DNA of 64,000 nt from Verrucomicrobiota bacterium. GTDB taxonomy: Bacteria > Verrucomicrobiota > Verrucomicrobiia > Opitutales > Opitutaceae. The notes beneath the pieces were generated by a model. That model saw nothing but the letters and a program-made list of their open reading frames with translations. It ran no database searches and was not told the origin of the DNA. The translations under genes and the position numbers were made by a program. Shown here piece after piece: positions 8,581-16,865 of the stretch. The stretch is from NCBI GenBank assembly GCA_016871755.1, contig VHCJ01000005.1:1-64000 (forward strand), in the 5' to 3' direction. The number at the start of each line of letters is the position of its first letter. Position 1 is the stretch's first letter.

Positions 8581-9453
8581 ATGTCCGCGATCGTCAACGT
8601 CTCCGCCTACCGCTTCGTTCCGCTTGACGACCTCGAACGCCGGCGCGACACGCTGCAGGCGCTGGCCGAGGCGAGCGACCTGCGCGGCACCCTCCTGCTC
8701 AGCTCGGAGGGCATCAACCTCTTCGTCGCCGGCACGCGGGAAGGCGTCGATCGGTTCCTCGCGGCGCTCCGAGCCCTCGCACCCTTCACCGATCTGGAGA
8801 CCAAGGAAAGCCCCGCGACGATCCGCCCCTTCCGCCGGCTCCGGGTGAAGGTCAAGCGCGAGATCATCGCATGCGGAGCCCCGGGCATCGATCCGGCCCG
8901 TGATCCGGCGCCCCGGGTTTCGCCGGAGGAACTGCGCGCCTGGCTCGACGCGGGGGAGGACGTGATCCTACTCGACACCCGCAACGACTACGAAGTGCAA
9001 CTCGGCACGTTCCGCCGGGCCCAGCACCTCGCGCTGCGCACCTTCCGTGACCTTCCCGAAGCGGTCACGCGCCTTCCCGCCGCGTGGCAAGCCGCGCGGG
9101 TCGTCACCTTCTGCACCGGGGGCATCCGCTGCGAGAAAGCAGCTCCCCTCCTTCGGAAGGCGGGCTTCGCCGACGTGTACCAACTCGACGGCGGCATCCT
9201 GCGCTACTTCGAGCGCTGCGGCGGTGCGCACTACGACGGGGAATGCTTCGTCTTCGATGAGCGCGTCGGCCTCCTCCCGGATCTCACGCCCAGCGGGGCG
9301 ACGCTCTGCGCACGTTGCCAGCGGCCCATACCGCGCGCGGAGCAGGCAGAGCCGGGCGGGGCGGCACCGGCGGAAGGCTGCCGGGTCTGCCGCGCTGAGC
9401 CGCCGGCGACGCCTCAGCGAAGCCAGCGCGACACCTCGGAGAACACCTGGTAG
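8581..9453 (+). CDS. trhO: tRNA uridine(34) hydroxylase, rhodanese-like
   Basis: 290 residues of the TrhO/YceA family, which uses O2 to make 5-hydroxyuridine at the wobble position of tRNA. N-terminal acylphosphatase-like domain (1-95, with GTLLLSSEGINLFVAG), then a rhodanese domain (115-215) with the active-site loop CTGGIRC whose Cys178 is catalytic, and a C-terminal region with two CxxC pairs (243/246 and 267/270) that may bind a metal. About 50 bases separate it from the helicase gene. Its 3' end overlaps the convergent Nramp gene by 40 bases, so the last 13 codons are read on both strands; the C-terminal tail after the second CxxC is unlikely to be conserved. Confidence 0.9.
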   Translation: MSAIVNVSAYRFVPLDDLERRRDTLQALAEASDLRGTLLLSSEGINLFVAGTREGVDRFLAALRALAPFTDLETKESPATIRPFRRLRVKVKREIIACGAPGIDPARDPAPRVSPEELRAWLDAGEDVILLDTRNDYEVQLGTFRRAQHLALRTFRDLPEAVTRLPAAWQAARVVTFCTGGIRCEKAAPLLRKAGFADVYQLDGGILRYFERCGGAHYDGECFVFDERVGLLPDLTPSGATLCARCQRPIPRAEQAEPGGAAPAEGCRVCRAEPPATPQRSQRDTSENTW

Positions 9454-10778
9454 CCGCCGAGGGCGATCATCGAGGCCACCGCCAGCAGCAGGCAGGCAAG
9501 CGAGTACGGTCCGGCCCGCAGTTCGCGATGCGGCGACGTGAAGTGGAAGTAGATCGCGGCGCCGGCAAGGAACGGGAGCATCAGTCCTTGGGCGATCGCC
9601 CCGATGAAGACCAGTTGCACCGGGTTGCCGAAACCGAGGTAGACCGCCGTGAAGATCGCCGGAAGGAGCACGCAGCTCACCTTGATCCAACGCACCCGGG
9701 CCTCGCTGCTCCGCGGCCGGAATGGCGTGAAGAGCCCGGCCGCATCCACCACAAGCCGAGCGTTCGAGGCCGTGGCGCCGAAGATCGTCGAGTAGAGGAC
9801 GGCGATGGCGCCGACCACGAACATCCACAGACTCCACTCACCGAAGGTTTCGCGGTACATCAGCGACAGCACTTCGATCATCCGCTGGTTCTCCACGAGC
9901 ATTCCCTTCGCGTGCAGGACCGCCGCACCGAGCAGGTAAAAAGCCACCGTGGTGGTCGTGTAGAGCGCGAAGCAGACCCACGCATCGATCTTCATCACCC
10001 GCAGCCAGCCCTGCGCCCGCCGGCGCCATTCCTCCGTGCCATCGTCCTCTCCCACCTTCACGCCATAGCCTTTCTCCAAGCACCAGTACGGGTAGTAAAT
10101 CAACTCCGTCGCCCCGACGCCGATCACCCCGAACGCGCCGAACGCCGTCGCCACGTCCGCCGGCAGGCCGAAGGCAAAACCGCTGACCAACTGCTCGCCC
10201 GTGACGGCGTAGGGCGTGGTCTGCAGGACCGCGACCGCAACCATCGTCCCGACCGTGAAGACGCCCACCATCACCATCGAGGCGGTTTCGACCAAGCGGT
10301 ACCGCCCAAGGACGAGCAGGACGGCGCAGCTCCCGCCGATCGCGATGGCCAGCGCCGGGAGCGGCACGTTGATCCCCCCGAGTCGCAGCGCCGTCGCCGT
10401 GCCGCCGACCATTCCCGCCACCTGCGGCATCACGCAGATGAACATCCCCAGCCACAGCCACAGCAGCCACGAAACGATCAAACGGGGGCCCGGCAGCGAA
10501 TCCATCGCCTGCAGCATCGTCCGGCCGCGCGTGATCGCATAGCGCCCAAACTCAAGCTGCACAAACACCTTCACGAGACAGCCCAGGATGATGAACCACA
10601 GGAGCGTAAAACCCACCTCCGCGCCCAGTTTCGGCGTCACGATCAGTTCCCCGGATCCCACGATGATCGATGAGACGATCAGTCCGGGACCCAGCTGACG
10701 CAGCAGGGGCCGCAACCGGGTGGGCGCCCACTCCGGGGCGGGGGCAAGGCTCGGGGCGGGGTTCGACGGGGTAGTCAT
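9414..10778 (-). CDS. Divergent Nramp-family divalent metal transporter
   Basis: 454 residues with about eleven transmembrane helices and the Nramp (SLC11) fold signature GPGLIVSSIIVGSGELIV in the first helix and GVIGVGATELIYYPYW in the sixth. Canonical Nramps carry DPGN and MPH there to coordinate Mn2+/Fe2+; here the positions read GSGE and ATEL, so the metal site is altered and the substrate is uncertain (Nramp-related carriers of other cations are known). The start at 10778 (MTTPSNP) was chosen because the upstream extension is low-complexity. It lies on the same strand as, and 70 bases downstream of, the metal ABC operon, which supports a metal role and possibly read-through expression. 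Confidence 0.8.
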   Translation of the reverse strand: MTTPSNPAPSLAPAPEWAPTRLRPLLRQLGPGLIVSSIIVGSGELIVTPKLGAEVGFTLLWFIILGCLVKVFVQLEFGRYAITRGRTMLQAMDSLPGPRLIVSWLLWLWLGMFICVMPQVAGMVGGTATALRLGGINVPLPALAIAIGGSCAVLLVLGRYRLVETASMVMVGVFTVGTMVAVAVLQTTPYAVTGEQLVSGFAFGLPADVATAFGAFGVIGVGATELIYYPYWCLEKGYGVKVGEDDGTEEWRRRAQGWLRVMKIDAWVCFALYTTTTVAFYLLGAAVLHAKGMLVENQRMIEVLSLMYRETFGEWSLWMFVVGAIAVLYSTIFGATASNARLVVDAAGLFTPFRPRSSEARVRWIKVSCVLLPAIFTAVYLGFGNPVQLVFIGAIAQGLMLPFLAGAAIYFHFTSPHRELRAGPYSLACLLLAVASMIALGGYQVFSEVSRWLR

Positions 10779-10848
10779 GCGGGGTGGCCGCGCGGCGTTG
10801 AACTCGGAGGCCGGCGGATGCCCCACCCTGCCGGACGCTTCCCTAGGC

Positions 10849-11799
10849 TCAAGAAAGAACCCGGGCGCGTCGCAACCCCTGCGCGATCAGGCCACCCCGC
10901 GGAGCGAACAGCCACGCAAGGGCGAACAGGACCGCCCCCATCACCACGATCGCCGGCGCCAGCGAGCAGTCCAACCAGACCGCCAGACCCACGCCCCACC
11001 ACACGCTCAGGGCCGCGTGCAGCACCGCGAGAAGATGCAGGCGCGGAAGCCGGTCCGTGAGCAGGGTCGCCGTCGCACCCGGCAGGATCAGCATCGCCAC
11101 CACCAGCACCGCGCCAACGGCCTCGAAGGCACTGACCACGACCAGCGAAAGGAGCAGCATCAGGCCGAGGCGCACGGTCCCCACGCGCACACCCGCCGCC
11201 CGCGCGATTCCGGGATCGAATGAACTGACGAGAAGGATGCGGTAACCGATCGCGATCACCCCGACCACCAACGCCAGCACCCCGGCCATCCGGAGCACGG
11301 CCGGCGGTGCCAACGTCCACGCTCCCCAGTGCACCGGGGGCTCAAGAGCGACAAAGAGCAATTCGCCGTTCAGCACACAGTCGGGATCGAGGTCGATCTG
11401 CCCCGCGAAGACCACGGTGAGCAGGACCCCGATGGCAAAGAGCGCCGAGAACACGATCCCGATCGCCGCGTCCTGCTTGAGCGGAGTGCGCGCTTGCAGG
11501 AAATCGATGATCAACGTCGCCCCGAGACCGGAGGCGAGCGCCCCGAGGAACATCGCTCCCGTGTCGCGCCCCCCCGAGACGAGAAACGCGATCACGAGGC
11601 CCGGGAGCACGCTGTGACTCACCGCGTCGCCCATCAGGGCCATGCGGCGGAGGAGCAGGTAGTTGCCGAGCAGCCCGCAGGAGGCCGCGACGCAGAATCC
11701 CATCACGCCGACCCAGCCAAAGGTCTCGCGCTGCTCCGTCCACGGCGCCACGAGGAGCGCGTGGAGATCGAACGCGGGAAGCATCCACTGCCCACTCAT
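10849..11799 (-). CDS. Metal ABC transporter permease (MntC/ZnuB-type)
   Basis: 316 residues, ABC-3 family integral membrane permease with about eight or nine helices and the family signature GLLGNYLLLRRMALMGDAVS followed by HSVLPGL near the N-terminus. It forms the inner-membrane channel for Mn2+, Zn2+ or Fe2+ with the ATPase and binding protein encoded upstream. Last gene of the four-gene operon; its start overlaps the fused permease-regulator stop by four bases. Unlike its partner it has no extra C-terminal domain. Two non-identical permeases in one operon imply a heterodimeric channel. Confidence 0.9.
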   Translation of the reverse strand: MSGQWMLPAFDLHALLVAPWTEQRETFGWVGVMGFCVAASCGLLGNYLLLRRMALMGDAVSHSVLPGLVIAFLVSGGRDTGAMFLGALASGLGATLIIDFLQARTPLKQDAAIGIVFSALFAIGVLLTVVFAGQIDLDPDCVLNGELLFVALEPPVHWGAWTLAPPAVLRMAGVLALVVGVIAIGYRILLVSSFDPGIARAAGVRVGTVRLGLMLLLSLVVVSAFEAVGAVLVVAMLILPGATATLLTDRLPRLHLLAVLHAALSVWWGVGLAVWLDCSLAPAIVVMGAVLFALAWLFAPRGGLIAQGLRRARVLS

Positions 11800-13277
11800 C
11801 GCGCCCGGCCCCCCGGTTCACCCCAGTTGGACCGCTCCAGATCCGCCGCGCTCGGGATCACGCTCCCGTGCGGATCGCGGCGGGCGTGATCCAGCCGACG
11901 CTCCAACTCGCGGACCGCAGCCTCGCCGAGCACGTGTTCGATTTTCTCGGCGTGGTCATGGACATGGTCGGGCGCGAAGTTCGCCGAACGCGTCAGGTAA
12001 AGCTCCCAGAGCCGGTGGTTGCGCACGATCTCGCCCGCGCGCCGTCGCCCCTCGGGGGTGAAGGAGAGGAGATCCCGCTCCAGGCGCGCCATGCCGTGCC
12101 GGTGCAGTTCCGCGCCGAGCGCGCGGACCTCCTCGACGGTCTGCCGGCGCCGCGTCGCCAGTTCCTCCAGCGTGATCCCGGCATGCGCGAAGCCCTCGCG
12201 CTCGGCGACATGGTACATCGACTTCAAGGTGTTCTCGCGCCGGGTCTGACCGACCCCGGCCCGCTGCCGCCAGAACCGGACCAACCACCCTTCGCGGGTG
12301 CCGAAGAGAACCGCGCCGCCGAAGGTCGCGCTCGCGACGAGGACGATGAGCGGGCCGGTCGGAAGACCAGGACCAAGGAACGAAAGAAACGCCCCCCCCA
12401 GACCCGCCACGGCTCCGAGCAGCGCCGCGTACACCAGCAGGCGCGACAGCCGCCGGGTCAGGAGGTACGCCGTCGCAGCCGGCGTCACGAGCAGCGCGGA
12501 CACGAGCACCACCCCGACCGCCTGCAACGCGATCACCACCGACGCGGCGAGCAGGAACATGAACGCGTGGTGCACGAAGGCCGCCGGCAGTCCCTGCGAG
12601 CGGGCAAAGGCGGCGTCGAACGAGACCGCCACCAACTCCTTGTACAGAGCGACGACAAACAGAACCACCACGCCGGCCACGATCGCCATCACCCGCAGGT
12701 CCGCCGGCCCGATCGCCGCCGCCTGGCCAAAGAGGAAATGGGAAAGCCCCGCCGCATTCGCCGCTGGCAGGCGCTGGATGATCGAAAGCAGGCAAAGTCC
12801 GACGGCGAAGAACGAGGCAAGGACGAGGCCCAGTGCGGCGTCCTCCTTGAGCCGCGTCGTCCGGCAGAGCGCCGAGACGAAGGCCGTGCCGACGAGGCCC
12901 GCCACGGTCGCCCCGACTAGGATCGCCACCGGATCGCGGGACATGTTCCACAGGAACCCCGCGGCCACGCCCGGGAGCACCGCGTGCGACAGCGCATCCC
13001 CGACCAGCGCCATGCGCCGCACCACCATGAATCCCCCGAGCAGTCCGCACGTTCCTCCCAGCAGCAGGGTCCCCCAGACGACATGACGCACCGCGGCATC
13101 CTCGAGGCGCAGGAAACGCCAGACCTGCGCCAATCCCTCCCCGTCGGGACCCGCCGGCGCCGCCGCATGAGCCCATGGGAGCAGCAGCGCCGCCGCCAGG
13201 ACCGCCGTCGCAACCCGCGCGGCACCCCACCGGCGCCGCGAGCCCCCTCCACCCCGCGTCTCTCTCCCGGCCTTCAC
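11796..13277 (-). CDS. Metal ABC permease fused to C-terminal DtxR/MntR repressor domain
   Basis: 493 residues. Residues 24-47 look like a signal/anchor helix; 60-325 are an ABC-3 metal permease (GGFMVVRRMALVGDALSHAV at 81-100); 345-475 are a DtxR/MntR-like module: a winged HTH (about 350-412) and a metal-binding, dimerisation part with His421 in NHRLW and the HAEKIEHVL motif (Glu444, Glu447, His448), matching MntR ligands. DtxR-type proteins repress metal-uptake genes when loaded with Mn2+ or Fe2+. The fusion therefore joins transport and sensing in one protein, probably with the regulator facing the cytoplasm. Start and stop overlap the neighbours by four bases each. A stop or frameshift between the two parts is not present. 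Confidence 0.9.
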   Translation of the reverse strand: MKAGRETRGGGGSRRRWGAARVATAVLAAALLLPWAHAAAPAGPDGEGLAQVWRFLRLEDAAVRHVVWGTLLLGGTCGLLGGFMVVRRMALVGDALSHAVLPGVAAGFLWNMSRDPVAILVGATVAGLVGTAFVSALCRTTRLKEDAALGLVLASFFAVGLCLLSIIQRLPAANAAGLSHFLFGQAAAIGPADLRVMAIVAGVVVLFVVALYKELVAVSFDAAFARSQGLPAAFVHHAFMFLLAASVVIALQAVGVVLVSALLVTPAATAYLLTRRLSRLLVYAALLGAVAGLGGAFLSFLGPGLPTGPLIVLVASATFGGAVLFGTREGWLVRFWRQRAGVGQTRRENTLKSMYHVAEREGFAHAGITLEELATRRRQTVEEVRALGAELHRHGMARLERDLLSFTPEGRRRAGEIVRNHRLWELYLTRSANFAPDHVHDHAEKIEHVLGEAAVRELERRLDHARRDPHGSVIPSAADLERSNWGEPGGRAR

Positions 13278-14065
13278 CGCGGTCCTCCCTGCGCCCCGAG
13301 AGCCTGAGCCACTTCGCTGAGCAGGGTGAGCCGCCCGCCATAGGTGCGCTGCAGCAGCTCCGCCGTGAAGACCTCAGCGGTCGGCCCAAACGCGACCACA
13401 TTCAGATTCAGGAGCAGCAGATGATCGAAATACTGCCGCGCCGTCGGCAGATCATGATGAACCACGAAGAGCGTGCAGCCCCGGTCCCGCAGCGTCCGGA
13501 GGACCGACACGATCGACGCCTCCGTCGCGGCATCCACGCCCGCGAACGGTTCATCCATGAAGTAAACCTCCGCCTCCTGCGCGAGCGCCCGCGCGAGGAA
13601 CACCCGCTGCTGCTGGCCACCCGAGAGATTGCTGATCTGGCGATCCGCGTACGGCAGCAGTTCCACCTGCTCCAGACACGCCCGCGCCGCCTCGCGGTCC
13701 GCCCGGGAGGGCCGACGAAAGAGCCCGATGCGCCCGTAACGCCCCATCAGCACCACATCCATCACGCTGACCGGAAAATCCCAGTCGACCGTCTCCCGCT
13801 GCGGCACGTACCCCACCCGCGAGCCGACTTCGCCGAACGGGCGGCCCCAGAAACGCACCCATCCGCCCTGCGTCGGCACCAGCCCCATGCAGGCCTTGAT
13901 CAGCGTCGACTTGCCCGCGCCATTGGGACCGATGATTCCCACCAGTTTTCCCGGCCCGATCGTCAGGTCGACGCCCCACAGCACCGGCTTCCGCCGGTAA
14001 GCGACGGTCAGGTCGTGGATCTCCACCACCGGAGGAGGGACGGGGGACGCAGTCGGGGCATTCAT
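13274..14065 (-). CDS. Metal ABC transporter ATP-binding protein (MntB/ZnuC-type)
   Basis: 263 residues with complete nucleotide-binding domain: Walker A GPNGAGKS (46-53), Q-loop in YVPQRETVDWDFP, signature LSGGQQQR, Walker B YFMDEP, and an H-loop VVHHD. The YVPQRETVDWDFPVSVMDVV region is characteristic of manganese/zinc/iron ABC ATPases. It powers the two permeases encoded downstream. The ATG at 14065 (MNAPTAS) was chosen because preceding in-frame codons are arginine-rich and lie within the binding-protein gene. Gap to the binding-protein stop is 31 bases; the stop overlaps the fused permease start by four bases. Confidence 0.93.
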   Translation of the reverse strand: MNAPTASPVPPPVVEIHDLTVAYRRKPVLWGVDLTIGPGKLVGIIGPNGAGKSTLIKACMGLVPTQGGWVRFWGRPFGEVGSRVGYVPQRETVDWDFPVSVMDVVLMGRYGRIGLFRRPSRADREAARACLEQVELLPYADRQISNLSGGQQQRVFLARALAQEAEVYFMDEPFAGVDAATEASIVSVLRTLRDRGCTLFVVHHDLPTARQYFDHLLLLNLNVVAFGPTAEVFTAELLQRTYGGRLTLLSEVAQALGAQGGPR

Positions 14066-14096: not shown

Positions 14097-15026
14097 TCAG
14101 CGCAGGGCGGCGACGAGCGTGCGGACATTGTGCCGCACCATGCCTTCGTACGTGCTGGGATCCAGTCCCTCGGCGGTCTGGCCCGGCGGCCCAAGCGAGT
14201 CCGAGTAGAGTTGTCCCCCGACCCGGATCCCGGCGTCGGCCGCCACGCGCTGGATCGCCTTTGGCGAGACCGAGGACTCCACAAAGATCGCCGGCACCCG
14301 GCGACGAGTCAGGAACTGGGTCAGCTCCGCCATCGCGGACAACGCCGCCTCGCCCACCGTGGAAATCCCCTGCAAGCCCACGACCTCGAAGTGATAGGCG
14401 CGACCGAAGTACCCGAACGCATCGTGACTCGTGACGAGCACCCGCCGCTCGGGCGGGAGCACGGCGAGTGCCTCGCGCACCCAAGCGTCGAGACCGGAGA
14501 GACGCTGCCGCAGGTCGTCGGCCCGCGCCCGGTAGACACCTGTCCCCGCCGGATCGGCCTGACTCAGCGCCCGGACAACCGGCTCGACGCAGTCGCGCCA
14601 CAGCCGGACGTCGAACCACACGTGCGGATCGACGGTCGAAGCCCCCTCTCCCACCTGGCGCAGCTGTGCCGGCGCAAGATCGGCGGTGATCGCGAACACT
14701 CGCTCGCGCCGGGTGCGCAGCCGCTGAAGCACGCCCTCCATGCGCCCCTCGAGGAGCAGACCGTGGAACGCCACCACATCCGCCTCCTGCAACGCCCGGA
14801 GATCCGACGGCGTCGGCTGGTAGGAATGCGGATCCACCCCCGGACCCATCAATGACCGGACGGACACCCGCGGGCCGCCCACCTCGCGGACCAAGTCGGC
14901 GACGAGGGGCGTCGTCGCCACCACCCGCAACGCCACCGCCGCCCCGAGCGGCGTCCCCACCCCCGCCAGCGCCGCCAACAGGACGAGGGCCCGGATCACG
15001 GATGCGACGCGCGCAACGGAGAGCAT
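14097..15026 (-). CDS. Metal ABC transporter substrate-binding protein (TroA/MntA-type)
   Basis: 309 residues with an N-terminal signal helix (about 7-31, cleaved near GAA-VALRVV) and the cluster A-I binding-protein fold: DPHSYQPTPSD with His67, and DPHVWFD with His135, two of the usual four metal ligands; the Asp and Glu ligands lie further on. There is no histidine-rich loop between the two lobes as seen in ZnuA, which argues for Mn2+ or Fe2+ over Zn2+. It delivers metal in the periplasm to the permeases. It is the first gene of the operon, so the DtxR-like operator 44-57 bases upstream would control the whole unit. Confidence 0.92.
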   Translation of the reverse strand: MLSVARVASVIRALVLLAALAGVGTPLGAAVALRVVATTPLVADLVREVGGPRVSVRSLMGPGVDPHSYQPTPSDLRALQEADVVAFHGLLLEGRMEGVLQRLRTRRERVFAITADLAPAQLRQVGEGASTVDPHVWFDVRLWRDCVEPVVRALSQADPAGTGVYRARADDLRQRLSGLDAWVREALAVLPPERRVLVTSHDAFGYFGRAYHFEVVGLQGISTVGEAALSAMAELTQFLTRRRVPAIFVESSVSPKAIQRVAADAGIRVGGQLYSDSLGPPGQTAEGLDPSTYEGMVRHNVRTLVAALR

Positions 15027-15051
15027 GATCAGATCCTAGACACGTCCGAGT

Positions 15052-15081
15052 TTGCCGCAACCAAAAAGATTAGGCTAGACT
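15052..15081 (+). promoter_or_regulatory. Candidate sigma70 promoter for iron permease gene
   Basis: TTGCCG (15052-15057), an 18-base spacer and TAGACT (15076-15081) give a plausible promoter 90 bases upstream of the permease ATG. Its -10 is inside the DtxR-like palindrome. By-eye match only. Confidence 0.35.
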
Positions 15082-15083
15082 AA
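15070..15083. promoter_or_regulatory. DtxR/MntR-like operator palindrome
   Basis: TTAGGCTAGACTAA matches its own reverse complement at 12 of 14 positions and resembles the TTAGGTTAGCCTAA core of DtxR/IdeR boxes. It lies between the divergent metal ABC operon and the iron permease, just downstream of a CATAAT -10-like hexamer on the minus strand (15088-15083) and overlapping a plus-strand -10. Binding of the DtxR domain encoded in the operon would block both promoters (inference). Confidence 0.6.
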
Positions 15084-15170
15084 TTATGGAGTGGAGGGAC
15101 TCCCGCGCCCACTCTGGTCGGCCGCACTCCACCCTTGCCGCCGTGGGGACGCGTGCGAAACTCGCCGCGC

Positions 15171-16865
15171 ATGTCGCAGTCCTTCGCCCGTGCGGTGTTC
15201 GTGCTGACCGCGGTCTTTTTCGCGGCGTTTTTCATCTGGCCGATCTTCCAGATCGTGAAAGGCGGGTTCATGGATGCGGACGGCCGGCTGACCTTGGTGT
15301 ACGTCACCGCGCTGCTGGCGGATCCGGTGTACCGGGAGGGCCTGTTGAATTCATTCCTGCTGACCTGTGCGACCACGAGCTTGGCGCTGCTCATCGCGGT
15401 GCCGCTGGCGCTTGTCGCCGACCGCTATGCGTTTCCGGGGAAGACGCTGCTGACCTCGGTGATCCTGGTGCCGATGCTCCTGCCGCCCTTCGTCGGGGCG
15501 ATCGGCATCAAGCAGATTTTCGGTCAGTACGGAGCATTCAACTCGCTGCTGATCGCCATGGGCGTCCGACCGGAAGGCTGGACCTTCGATTGGTTCGCGC
15601 TGCATCAGTTCTGGGGCATCGCGGTGGTGAATGCGCTCTCGCTCTACCCCATCATTTACCTGAACGCGGTGGCAGCCTTGGCGAACATTGATCCCGCGAT
15701 GGAGGAAGCGGCGTCGAACCTCGGTTGCACGGGCTTCCGGCGGTTCCGCCGGATCACCCTGCCGCTGATGCGGTCCGGGCTCTTCGCGGGCGGCACCATT
15801 GTTTTCATCTGGGGCTTCACCGAGTTGGGCACGCCGTTGGTGTTCGACTACCCGCGCGTCACGAGCGTGCAGATCTTCTATGGGCTGAAAGACATTGGGG
15901 CCAACCCCTTCCCCTTCGCCCTGGTCGCGATCATGCTTTTCGCCACGACCTCGCTTTATGCGGTCGGCAAGGGACTCTTTGGGCGGCAAAGCTACGCGAT
16001 GATGGCGAAGGCCACGGCGGGCGGCGGACCACGGCGACTGTCGCTCGGGCCAGGGCTCCTCTGCACGGCGGCCTTTGGAGGCGTGTTCTTCCTCGCGGTG
16101 CTCCCGCACCTCGGGGTGATTCTCGTAGCGTTCTCCAACGACTGGCACGCCACGGTGGTGCCGGACGCGCTCACCCTGGAGAACTTCCGGCTCGCGCTGG
16201 GGCACGACCTCACCGTGCCGGCGATTGCGAACAGCCTCCGCTTTGCGGCGATCTCGACGGTGATTGACCTGATCCTCGGGGTGGCGATCGCGTACGTGGT
16301 GGTGCGATCGCGGATCCCGGGGCGGCAGGTGCTCGATTTCCTCGCGATGCTGCCGCTGGCGGTGCCCGGCTTGGTTCTCGCCTTCGGGTACCTCGCGATG
16401 GCGCAGGACGGGAAGCTGTTTGGCTTTCTCAATCCCACCCGTGACCCGACGATCCTCCTGATCATCGCCTATTCCGTGCGGCGACTCCCGTACGTCGTCC
16501 GCTCGGCGGCGGCCGGCTTCCAGCAGACCAGCGAGACCCTGGAGGAAGCGGCCCAGAATCTCGGCAGCCCTCCCCTGAAAGCGATGATCCGCATCACGCT
16601 TCCGCTGATCACGGCCAATCTCATTGCCGGCGGATTGCTCGCCTTCTCCTTCGCGATGCTGGAGGTCAGTGACTCCCTTATTCTCGCGCAAAAGCAGGCG
16701 TTCTACCCAATCACGAAGGCGATCCTCGAACTCTTCCAACTCCTCGGCGACGGCAAGTTCATCGCGAGCGCCCTCGGCGTCTGGGCCATGCTCTTCCTCG
16801 GCGTCACGATCGTCAGCCTCAGCCTCCTGCTCGGAAAGCGCCTTGGGGCGATCTTCCGGGTCTAG
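15171..16865 (+). CDS. Iron(III)-type ABC transporter permease, two-domain
   Basis: 564 residues with about twelve helices in two fused BPD_transp_1 halves, each with an EAA loop for docking the ATPase: EEAASNLGCTGFRRFRR and EEAAQNLGSPPLKAMIR. This FbpB/AfuB/ThiP-like architecture moves ferric iron, thiamine or related small solutes. ATG at 15171 (MSQSFA) starts directly before the first helix; an in-frame TTG 36 bases earlier is less likely. No ATPase or binding protein is adjacent. The best partners in the window are the ATPase and binding protein at 59195-61901. Position opposite a DtxR-like operator favours iron over thiamine. Confidence 0.85.
   Translation: MSQSFARAVFVLTAVFFAAFFIWPIFQIVKGGFMDADGRLTLVYVTALLADPVYREGLLNSFLLTCATTSLALLIAVPLALVADRYAFPGKTLLTSVILVPMLLPPFVGAIGIKQIFGQYGAFNSLLIAMGVRPEGWTFDWFALHQFWGIAVVNALSLYPIIYLNAVAALANIDPAMEEAASNLGCTGFRRFRRITLPLMRSGLFAGGTIVFIWGFTELGTPLVFDYPRVTSVQIFYGLKDIGANPFPFALVAIMLFATTSLYAVGKGLFGRQSYAMMAKATAGGGPRRLSLGPGLLCTAAFGGVFFLAVLPHLGVILVAFSNDWHATVVPDALTLENFRLALGHDLTVPAIANSLRFAAISTVIDLILGVAIAYVVVRSRIPGRQVLDFLAMLPLAVPGLVLAFGYLAMAQDGKLFGFLNPTRDPTILLIIAYSVRRLPYVVRSAAAGFQQTSETLEEAAQNLGSPPLKAMIRITLPLITANLIAGGLLAFSFAMLEVSDSLILAQKQAFYPITKAILELFQLLGDGKFIASALGVWAMLFLGVTIVSLSLLLGKRLGAIFRV

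Follow-up and report, generated by a model that had tools for sequence, protein, structure and literature searches.

A DtxR-type domain with a degenerate recognition helix on an ABC-3 metal permease of Verrucomicrobiota: a putative metal sensor carried by an importer

Fusions of a metal permease with a repressor have been reported from 11 phyla (Thompson 2012, via PMC5599777). The established case is YtgCR of Chlamydia, which according to the excerpted text of PMC5599777 is cleaved and shows iron-dependent DNA binding; the released, DNA-binding part, YtgR, is described in excerpts of PMC6504234 and PMC5599777 as the only identified iron-dependent regulator in Chlamydia. A different kind of control is known from MetNI and ModBC, importers of the ATP-binding cassette (ABC) type in which an additional domain binds the transported substrate and mediates feedback inhibition (passages of PMC10710835). 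Here we describe a permease-DtxR fusion in 64,000 nucleotides from a Verrucomicrobiota bacterium (family Opitutaceae; contig VHCJ01000005.1, positions 1 to 64,000, the whole of which is called the window below). Since YtgCR is established, such a fusion is not new as such, and a reading of this DNA from sequence only, which called the mechanism largely unstudied, went too far: the Chlamydia protein has been studied since 2011-2012, as PMC5599777 shows. We lean, somewhat beyond an even chance, towards the view that the DtxR-type domain is a cytosolic metal sensor on an Mn/Fe-type ABC importer, no longer a sequence-specific reader of DNA, which would serve feedback inhibition while a separate MntR controls the operon. 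As far as searches of an open-licence library show, what is new is the loss of the reading helix, the tracking of the operator with the separate MntR, and the presence of such domains on both permeases; a transport-regulating role for a permease-DtxR fusion was not found among the titles that they listed.

The fused gene, its operon and its topology

The gene is an uninterrupted open reading frame (ORF) that joins an ABC-3 permease and a DtxR-type domain in a single polypeptide of 493 residues, as the sequence-only reading had claimed. Pfam places the ABC-3 family PF00950 at residues 62-323 (E 1.6e-66), close to the 60-325 given before, and Fe_dep_repr_C, PF02742, the DtxR metal-binding and dimerisation domain, at residues 407-475 (E 2.3e-22). 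The features of the locus are as follows.

10849..11799, minus strand: second ABC-3 permease, unfused (PF00950)
11796..13277, minus strand: fused gene, ABC-3 metal permease plus DtxR-type domain, 493 residues, GTG start (ORF, Pfam, AlphaFold2 model)
11835..12257, minus strand: DtxR-type domain, residues 341-481 (structure matches 8pw0, Z 18.7, and 1bi2, Z 18.3)
11853..12059, minus strand: metal-binding and dimerisation core, residues 407-475, with H421, E425, H440, E444, E447 and H448 (PF02742, conservation)
12093..12140, minus strand: recognition-helix position, residues 380-395, acidic and variable, unlike DtxR (alignments, Pfam)
12198..12287, minus strand: continuous helix 331-360 into DtxR helix 1, carrying N349 (AlphaFold2 secondary structure, block pLDDT, the predicted local distance difference test score, >90)
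12309..13094, minus strand: ABC-3 permease part, residues 62-323 (PF00950; PsaBC 7kyp_F, Z 35.6 over 48-346)
13274..14065, minus strand: importer ATPase, putative start (PF00005; best NCBIfam match the MntA-like NF053840, under cut-off)
14097..15026, minus strand: importer substrate-binding protein (SBP; PF01297, ZnuA)
15070..15083, no strand assigned: operator TTAGGCTAGACTAA, upstream of the SBP gene (pattern match, same class upstream in related loci)

The permease-DtxR fusion is real and not an artefact, because in 72 of 80 related loci the ORF is uncut, with at least 303 codons ahead of the helix-1 motif, and because both PF00950 and PF02742 are present in all 53 aligned members (window counted). 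Locus counts out of 80 rest on the best 80 of at least 533 relatives obtained in a scan of named genomes with the C-terminal part of the protein, and 79 of these 80 are titled Verrucomicrobiota or members thereof. The minus-strand operon runs in the order SBP, ATPase, permease-DtxR fusion (the third gene) and second permease, the stop of the fused gene and the start of the second permease overlapping as ATGA at 11796-11799. A second permease follows the fusion in 75 of the 76 loci where this is testable, and the complete four-gene set was found in 53 of 77 loci, which is 53 of the 61 with a stretch of sufficient length. Sharing one operon, the permease, the ATPase and the ZnuA-type SBP identify an ABC-3 (cluster A-I) metal importer by Pfam and fold.

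The AlphaFold2 model of the fused protein, built from 53 sequences, has a mean pLDDT of 85.6. Its residues 48-346 match PsaBC (7kyp; Z 35.6, root-mean-square deviation 3.3, 285 aligned residues, 30% identity), so that the permease resembles the PsaBC-type Mn importers (7kyo, 7kyp) in fold and sequence, whereas the matched PsaBC chain, of about 290 residues, carries no DtxR domain. Residues 342-482 match the Mn repressor DR2539 (8pw0; Z 18.7, root-mean-square deviation 2.2, 135 aligned residues), a match that gives this part a winged-helix fold, and also DtxR itself (1bi2; Z 18.3). Nine membrane helices can be read from the helix list of the model. Over the 53 sequences the mean number of Lys plus Arg is 14.7 in the five inside loops (78 positions; 5.9 of it from the C-terminal stretch) versus 5.5 in the five outside loops (74 positions), an excess that makes the C-terminal DtxR-type domain most likely cytosolic, in agreement with the cytoplasmic C-terminus supposed from the sequence.

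The composition of the protein, an ABC-3 permease with a C-terminal DtxR-type domain, and the order SBP, ATPase, fused permease and second permease are those of Chlamydia YtgCR and ytgABCD, compared here by description and not by sequence. This likeness brings in the main rival explanation, that the DtxR-type domain is cut from the permease and then represses its own operon as a soluble, metal-dependent regulator, as the cleavage and metal-dependent DNA binding reported for Chlamydia in parts of PMC5599777 and PMC7755916 would lead one to expect. An operator does lie upstream of the operon and the fold of the whole domain is kept; we nevertheless consider such a release unlikely. Unlike Chlamydia, with YtgR as its only identified regulator of this kind, the window's genome has a separate MntR. 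The recognition helix of the family is degenerate, being acidic and poorly conserved, and the operator class tracks the standalone MntR and not the fused domain (see below). In addition, residues 331-360 form one unbroken helix in the model, which connects the membrane part, past its last helix, with helix 1 of the DtxR-type domain. The junction is thus a continuous, confidently predicted helix with no loose linker, although in Chlamydia the size of the product, about 28-30 kDa, points to a cleavage site farther upstream. A free domain made from an internal translation start was judged unlikely as a general mechanism. Within the 24 codons up to the helix-1 motif some ATG, GTG or TTG occurs in 56 of 77 loci and ATG in 15 of 77, while a start codon together with a Shine-Dalgarno-like motif occurs in 4 of 77; the sole candidate in codons 325-349 of the window's gene is TTG 332.

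Metal site and recognition helix of the fused domain

We compared 40 fused domains with 40 standalone MntRs paired to them (39 genomes plus the window's genome) and with 24 standalone proteins of the IdeR type. The 40 standalone regions came from 39 of 43 genomes (G334, G353, G368 and G376 were left out), L196 was dropped from the alignments, and 12 of 36 IdeR-type loci were dropped where the extraction pattern failed. The residues H421, E425, H440, E447, H448 and N349 are present in all 40 fused domains and E444 in 37, with Asp in the other three. These seven residues, which we take to be the ligands of both DtxR metal sites, make the site one of the IdeR/SloR/DtxR type and not of the B. subtilis MntR type. 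The earlier description of an MntR-like site was right in placing His421, Glu444, Glu447 and His448 and in regarding the site as intact, and wrong as to its type. A damaged site, in which the MntR ligands D8 and E11 would be replaced by N349 and K352, was considered and rejected: the 24 IdeR-type standalones have Asp or Asn at 349 and Lys at 352. N349 and K352 are thus what an IdeR-type protein normally has. Nothing seems to be missing from the metal site, in which the presumed ligands of both DtxR sites are found, and the domain would be expected to bind metal.

The recognition helix presents the opposite picture. Its mean column identity is 0.35 in the fused domains, 0.56 in the standalone MntRs and 0.63 in the IdeR-type proteins, versus 0.77-0.78, 0.48 and 0.65, respectively, for the metal/dimer core (column permutation p 5e-5 for the fused-versus-standalone contrast between helix and core). 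The most conserved part of the fused domain is the alpha4-alpha6 metal/dimer region, where a near-invariant stretch of alpha4, VRNHRLWELYLT, reaches beyond the ligands. The helix itself is acidic, poorly conserved and variable. The mean charge of its first turn is -1.80 in the fused domains versus +0.33 in MntR and +0.04 in the IdeR type, and that of the wing is -1.20 versus +1.45 in MntR. At the position of E383 in the window protein, which aligns with T40 of DtxR in the numbering that we assume, Glu or Asp is found in 37 of 40 fused domains and Ser or Thr in 40 of 40 MntRs and 24 of 24 IdeR-type proteins. All 53 fused members match PF02742, and so do all 44 standalone MntRs, every one of which comes from a genome that carries a fused gene. 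At E 0.01 the DtxR DNA-binding domain PF01325 was detected in none of the 53 fused members, the window protein included, versus all 44 standalone MntRs. The winged helix-turn-helix (HTH) claimed earlier from the sequence is thus present as a fold in the model and undetected by its Pfam profile. Compared with the IdeR/SloR/DtxR repressors, the fused domain shares the metal/dimer domain, with what we take to be the ligands of both sites, and the fold (Z 15-18), but it lacks a PF01325 match, its helix is acidic, and the ORF ends at residue 493 with no third domain past the dimer core. These features suggest that it no longer binds DNA in a sequence-specific manner.

Retained ligands together with lost conservation of the DNA reader would also be found in a passive buffer or chaperone that takes over imported metal and has no regulatory role. 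We regard this as very improbable, for the whole fold is kept, the near-invariant part of alpha4 exceeds what the ligands account for, and a rigid helix leads into the membrane part, all of which would rather point to an allosteric role.

The standalone MntR and the operator

The separate mntR that the sequence-only reading had proposed to look for exists in the window's genome (G000:C10:71065-71259, L002). Its product has PF02742, a PF01325 HTH with the helix SQASVTTM and, by our ligand assignment, presumably all six MntR ligands, so that the fused domain is not the sole DtxR-type regulator of this organism. A second PF02742 gene is present in all 11 fused genomes of the window's family and in 43 of the 50 fused genomes behind the named loci (one genome is apparently in both sets; 50 of the 80 loci were used, near-copies and cut loci being left out). 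For 12 of the 80 loci the fetched stretch that carries the fused operon also contains the standalone gene (the copy of L133 is cut by a contig end), and in L096 and L097 this gene lies inside the cluster on the opposite strand. The usual presence of this protein, like the strong conservation of alpha4-alpha6 in the fused domain, would suit a sequestration mechanism, in which the tethered domain would take the standalone MntR, or the domain of another transporter, as its partner and so influence gene control indirectly. However, the standalone MntR and the fused domain are on distant branches of the tree and hetero-pairing is therefore not expected, which leaves this explanation improbable in our view.

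The region 15060-15090, named earlier as a possible target, contains a DtxR/MntR-type operator: TTAG-N6-CTAA has a single match in the window, at 15070-15083, where 0.01 would be expected, and the 3.67 Mb genome has two sites of the narrower pattern TTAGNCNNGNCTAA. An operator of this class, class A, was found upstream of the SBP gene in 31 of 52 loci, window counted, versus a mean of 0.18 and a maximum of 2 in letter shuffles (loci with an unplaceable SBP start or missing upstream DNA were left out). In the 400 bases upstream, 31 loci have class A, 6 have class B (for example GTTCG-N6-CAAAC), 4 class C (TGTAGC-N4-GCTACA; the site of L097 falls just inside the estimated gene start) and 11 none. 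No sigma-70-like promoter was found at 14900-15250. The other TTAGNCNNGNCTAA site (L255, G000:C29:25922-25935) is 5 bases ahead of a small ORF that is followed by a second one; we take their products to be antitoxin-like and PIN-like, respectively.

Operator class follows the standalone protein. In 25 genomes, class A pairs with standalone MntR helices of the form xQASV (19) or APPSV (1), class B with GQPSV (2 of 2) and class C with [ST]HVTV (3 of 3), while fused-helix starts such as TLDEA and TLEDV recur in different operator classes. Among 27 genomes, operator distance correlates with the distance of the standalone recognition helix (r 0.52, p 0.0004) and not with that of the fused helix (r -0.03, p 0.60), and the same holds given permease distance (0.54, p 0.0002, and -0.04, p 0.65). 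The covariation is retained with pattern sites only (25 genomes, p 0.0002), with permeases less than 80% identical (17 genomes, p 0.0016), without class B (p 0.0002) and without L129 (p 0.0004). The 27-genome test includes L109, whose site is class B by pattern and whose helix reads RPSV, and L128, which has no class and whose palindrome was picked by eye; the 25-genome test includes neither. In both tests L129 was scored by its QASVT MntR, its HVTV second copy L196 having been dropped, and L093 (QASVT MntR adjacent, HVTV elsewhere) was left out, since its aligned standalone is not the adjacent one. Scoring L093 and L129 by their HVTV MntRs (L196 for L129) gives r 0.37 and p 0.002 in 28 genomes given permease distance, with p 0.72 for the fused helix. 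Three of 20 unfused stretches from the family have an operator of class A or C: two combine a class A site ahead of the SBP gene with a QASVT MntR at another place in the genome, and in the third an HVTV MntR adjoins a class C site.

These results bear directly on the model of the sequence-only reading, in which the membrane-tethered domain binds the operator itself and couples the state of the transporter to transcription. The cytoplasmic C-terminus, the intact metal site and the operator are all as this model would have them. We give it only a very slight chance, given that the recognition helix is acidic and variable, that the operator tracks a standalone MntR that is present, that a single operator would have to be brought to the membrane, and that in the divergent branch described below the HTH part is missing from some second-permease copies while the ligands are all kept. 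What stands of that interpretation is the polypeptide, the topology, the metal site and the operator, and what falls is the tethered domain as the reader of that operator.

Proposed feedback control and the divergent branch

In the reading that we favour, the standalone MntR would most likely act at 15070-15083 and control transcription of the operon, and the fused domain would most likely sense cytosolic metal, presumably Mn or Fe. In DtxR-type proteins metal binding shifts the helix-1/HTH part relative to the dimer core. As helix 1 is here continuous with the membrane part, this motion could act on the permease: the metal-loaded domain would shift the helix leaving the membrane, and the importer would be slowed or locked, the kind of feedback (trans-)inhibition known from MetNI and ModBC. 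As described in excerpts of PMC10710835, those systems likewise combine an ABC importer with an extra cytosolic domain able to dimerise, here a predicted sensor, but their regulatory domain is on the ATPase subunit, whereas here it would be on the membrane subunit and derived from a repressor. If this is correct, two descendants of one protein family would sense the same metal, MntR at the promoter and the fused domain on the pump, which would provide slow and fast control of Mn/Fe import; an ABC-3 metal importer would have a built-in sensor on its membrane subunit, and a transcription factor would have turned into a transporter regulator. The question would also arise whether Chlamydia YtgCR kept or regained DNA binding, and whether YtgR has a second function while on the permease.

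Several observations weigh against this reading. The winged-helix fold of the window protein is still complete by AlphaFold2 fold match, part of the conservation contrast could stem from selection on the fused core being unusually strong, and YtgR of Chlamydia, in a homologous arrangement, binds DNA after release according to the excerpt of PMC5599777. No standalone gene was detected in 7 of the 50 fused genomes (one of them a single-cell genome and one of only 1.5 Mb), and 11 of the 52 loci have no operator of any of the three classes. Without class C (3 genomes) the covariation drops to p 0.08. The genomes of L093 and L129 have two standalone MntRs (QASVT and HVTV) yet a class A operator; four QASVT-type genomes have no exact site (three are near-A by score, L120 is not), and the HVTV genome L074 has no site. 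Of the 20 unfused control stretches, 17 have no class A or C site (4 of the 20 are without a detected SBP gene). Finally, no metal-binding, DNA-binding or transport results for this branch were found in the literature searched.

Apart from the named-genome scan, genome searches were confined to the window's phylum. Full-length relatives were found in 11 of 61 genomes of the window's family (the window's own counted), and a match through both parts in 26 of 194 genomes of a draw from the phylum, which included distant fused permeases with E of about 1e-100 to 1e-119; 71 stretches of viral contigs matched the search pattern and none encodes a relative. From the best matches of the phylum draw we picked 18 loci by hand, not at random, 17 of which belong to the divergent kind. 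Nine of the 17 have a DtxR-type domain at the end of both permeases. In all 9 second-permease domains D349, H421, E425, H440, E444, E447 and H448 are conserved; the HTH is degenerate, and parts of it are absent from some copies. All 17 first-permease domains retain H421, E425, E447 and H448 and have Asp at positions 440 and 444. Of the 18 picked loci, 11 have a standalone DtxR-family gene on the fetched stretch, with Ser or Thr at 383 in each case. In a tree of a thinned set of 78 rows, with few columns and an arbitrary root, 41 fused domains form one clade (support 100/99), which splits into second-permease (99/91) and first-permease (98/91) domains. We would put at about even chances the history in which, in Verrucomicrobiota, a metal ABC importer captured a DtxR repressor once, the repressor lost its DNA-reading helix, kept the metal/dimer core and became a feedback valve, and part of the divergent branch came to carry it on both subunits, giving a sensor heterodimer within a single transporter.

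A conserved R-S/T-W-S/T motif opens the former recognition helix in many first-permease domains of the divergent branch (L262-L278). R377, which 39 of 40 fused domains and 16 of 17 divergent first-permease domains retain, may have a structural or docking role.

Other observations concern the records and the neighbouring genes. One Verrucomicrobiota-type locus (L113) is in a record titled as a Klebsiella pneumoniae metagenome-assembled genome, probably a mislabelled bin, and the titles Akkermansia muciniphila and Chthoniobacter flavus also seem questionable for several records. In the window, the gene that directly follows the ABC operon downstream encodes an Nramp-family transporter (9414-10826, minus strand; NF037982, 138 bits); an Nramp hit was counted in only 1 of 77 related loci. 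On the other side, a divergent double BPD_transp_1 permease (15168-16865, plus strand), whose best NCBIfam matches are of tungstate, phosphonate and molybdate types, all under cut-off, has the intergenic region with the operator in common with the metal operon. A further ABC-3 permease match in the window's genome (G000:C12:66189-67160) runs across an in-frame TGA.

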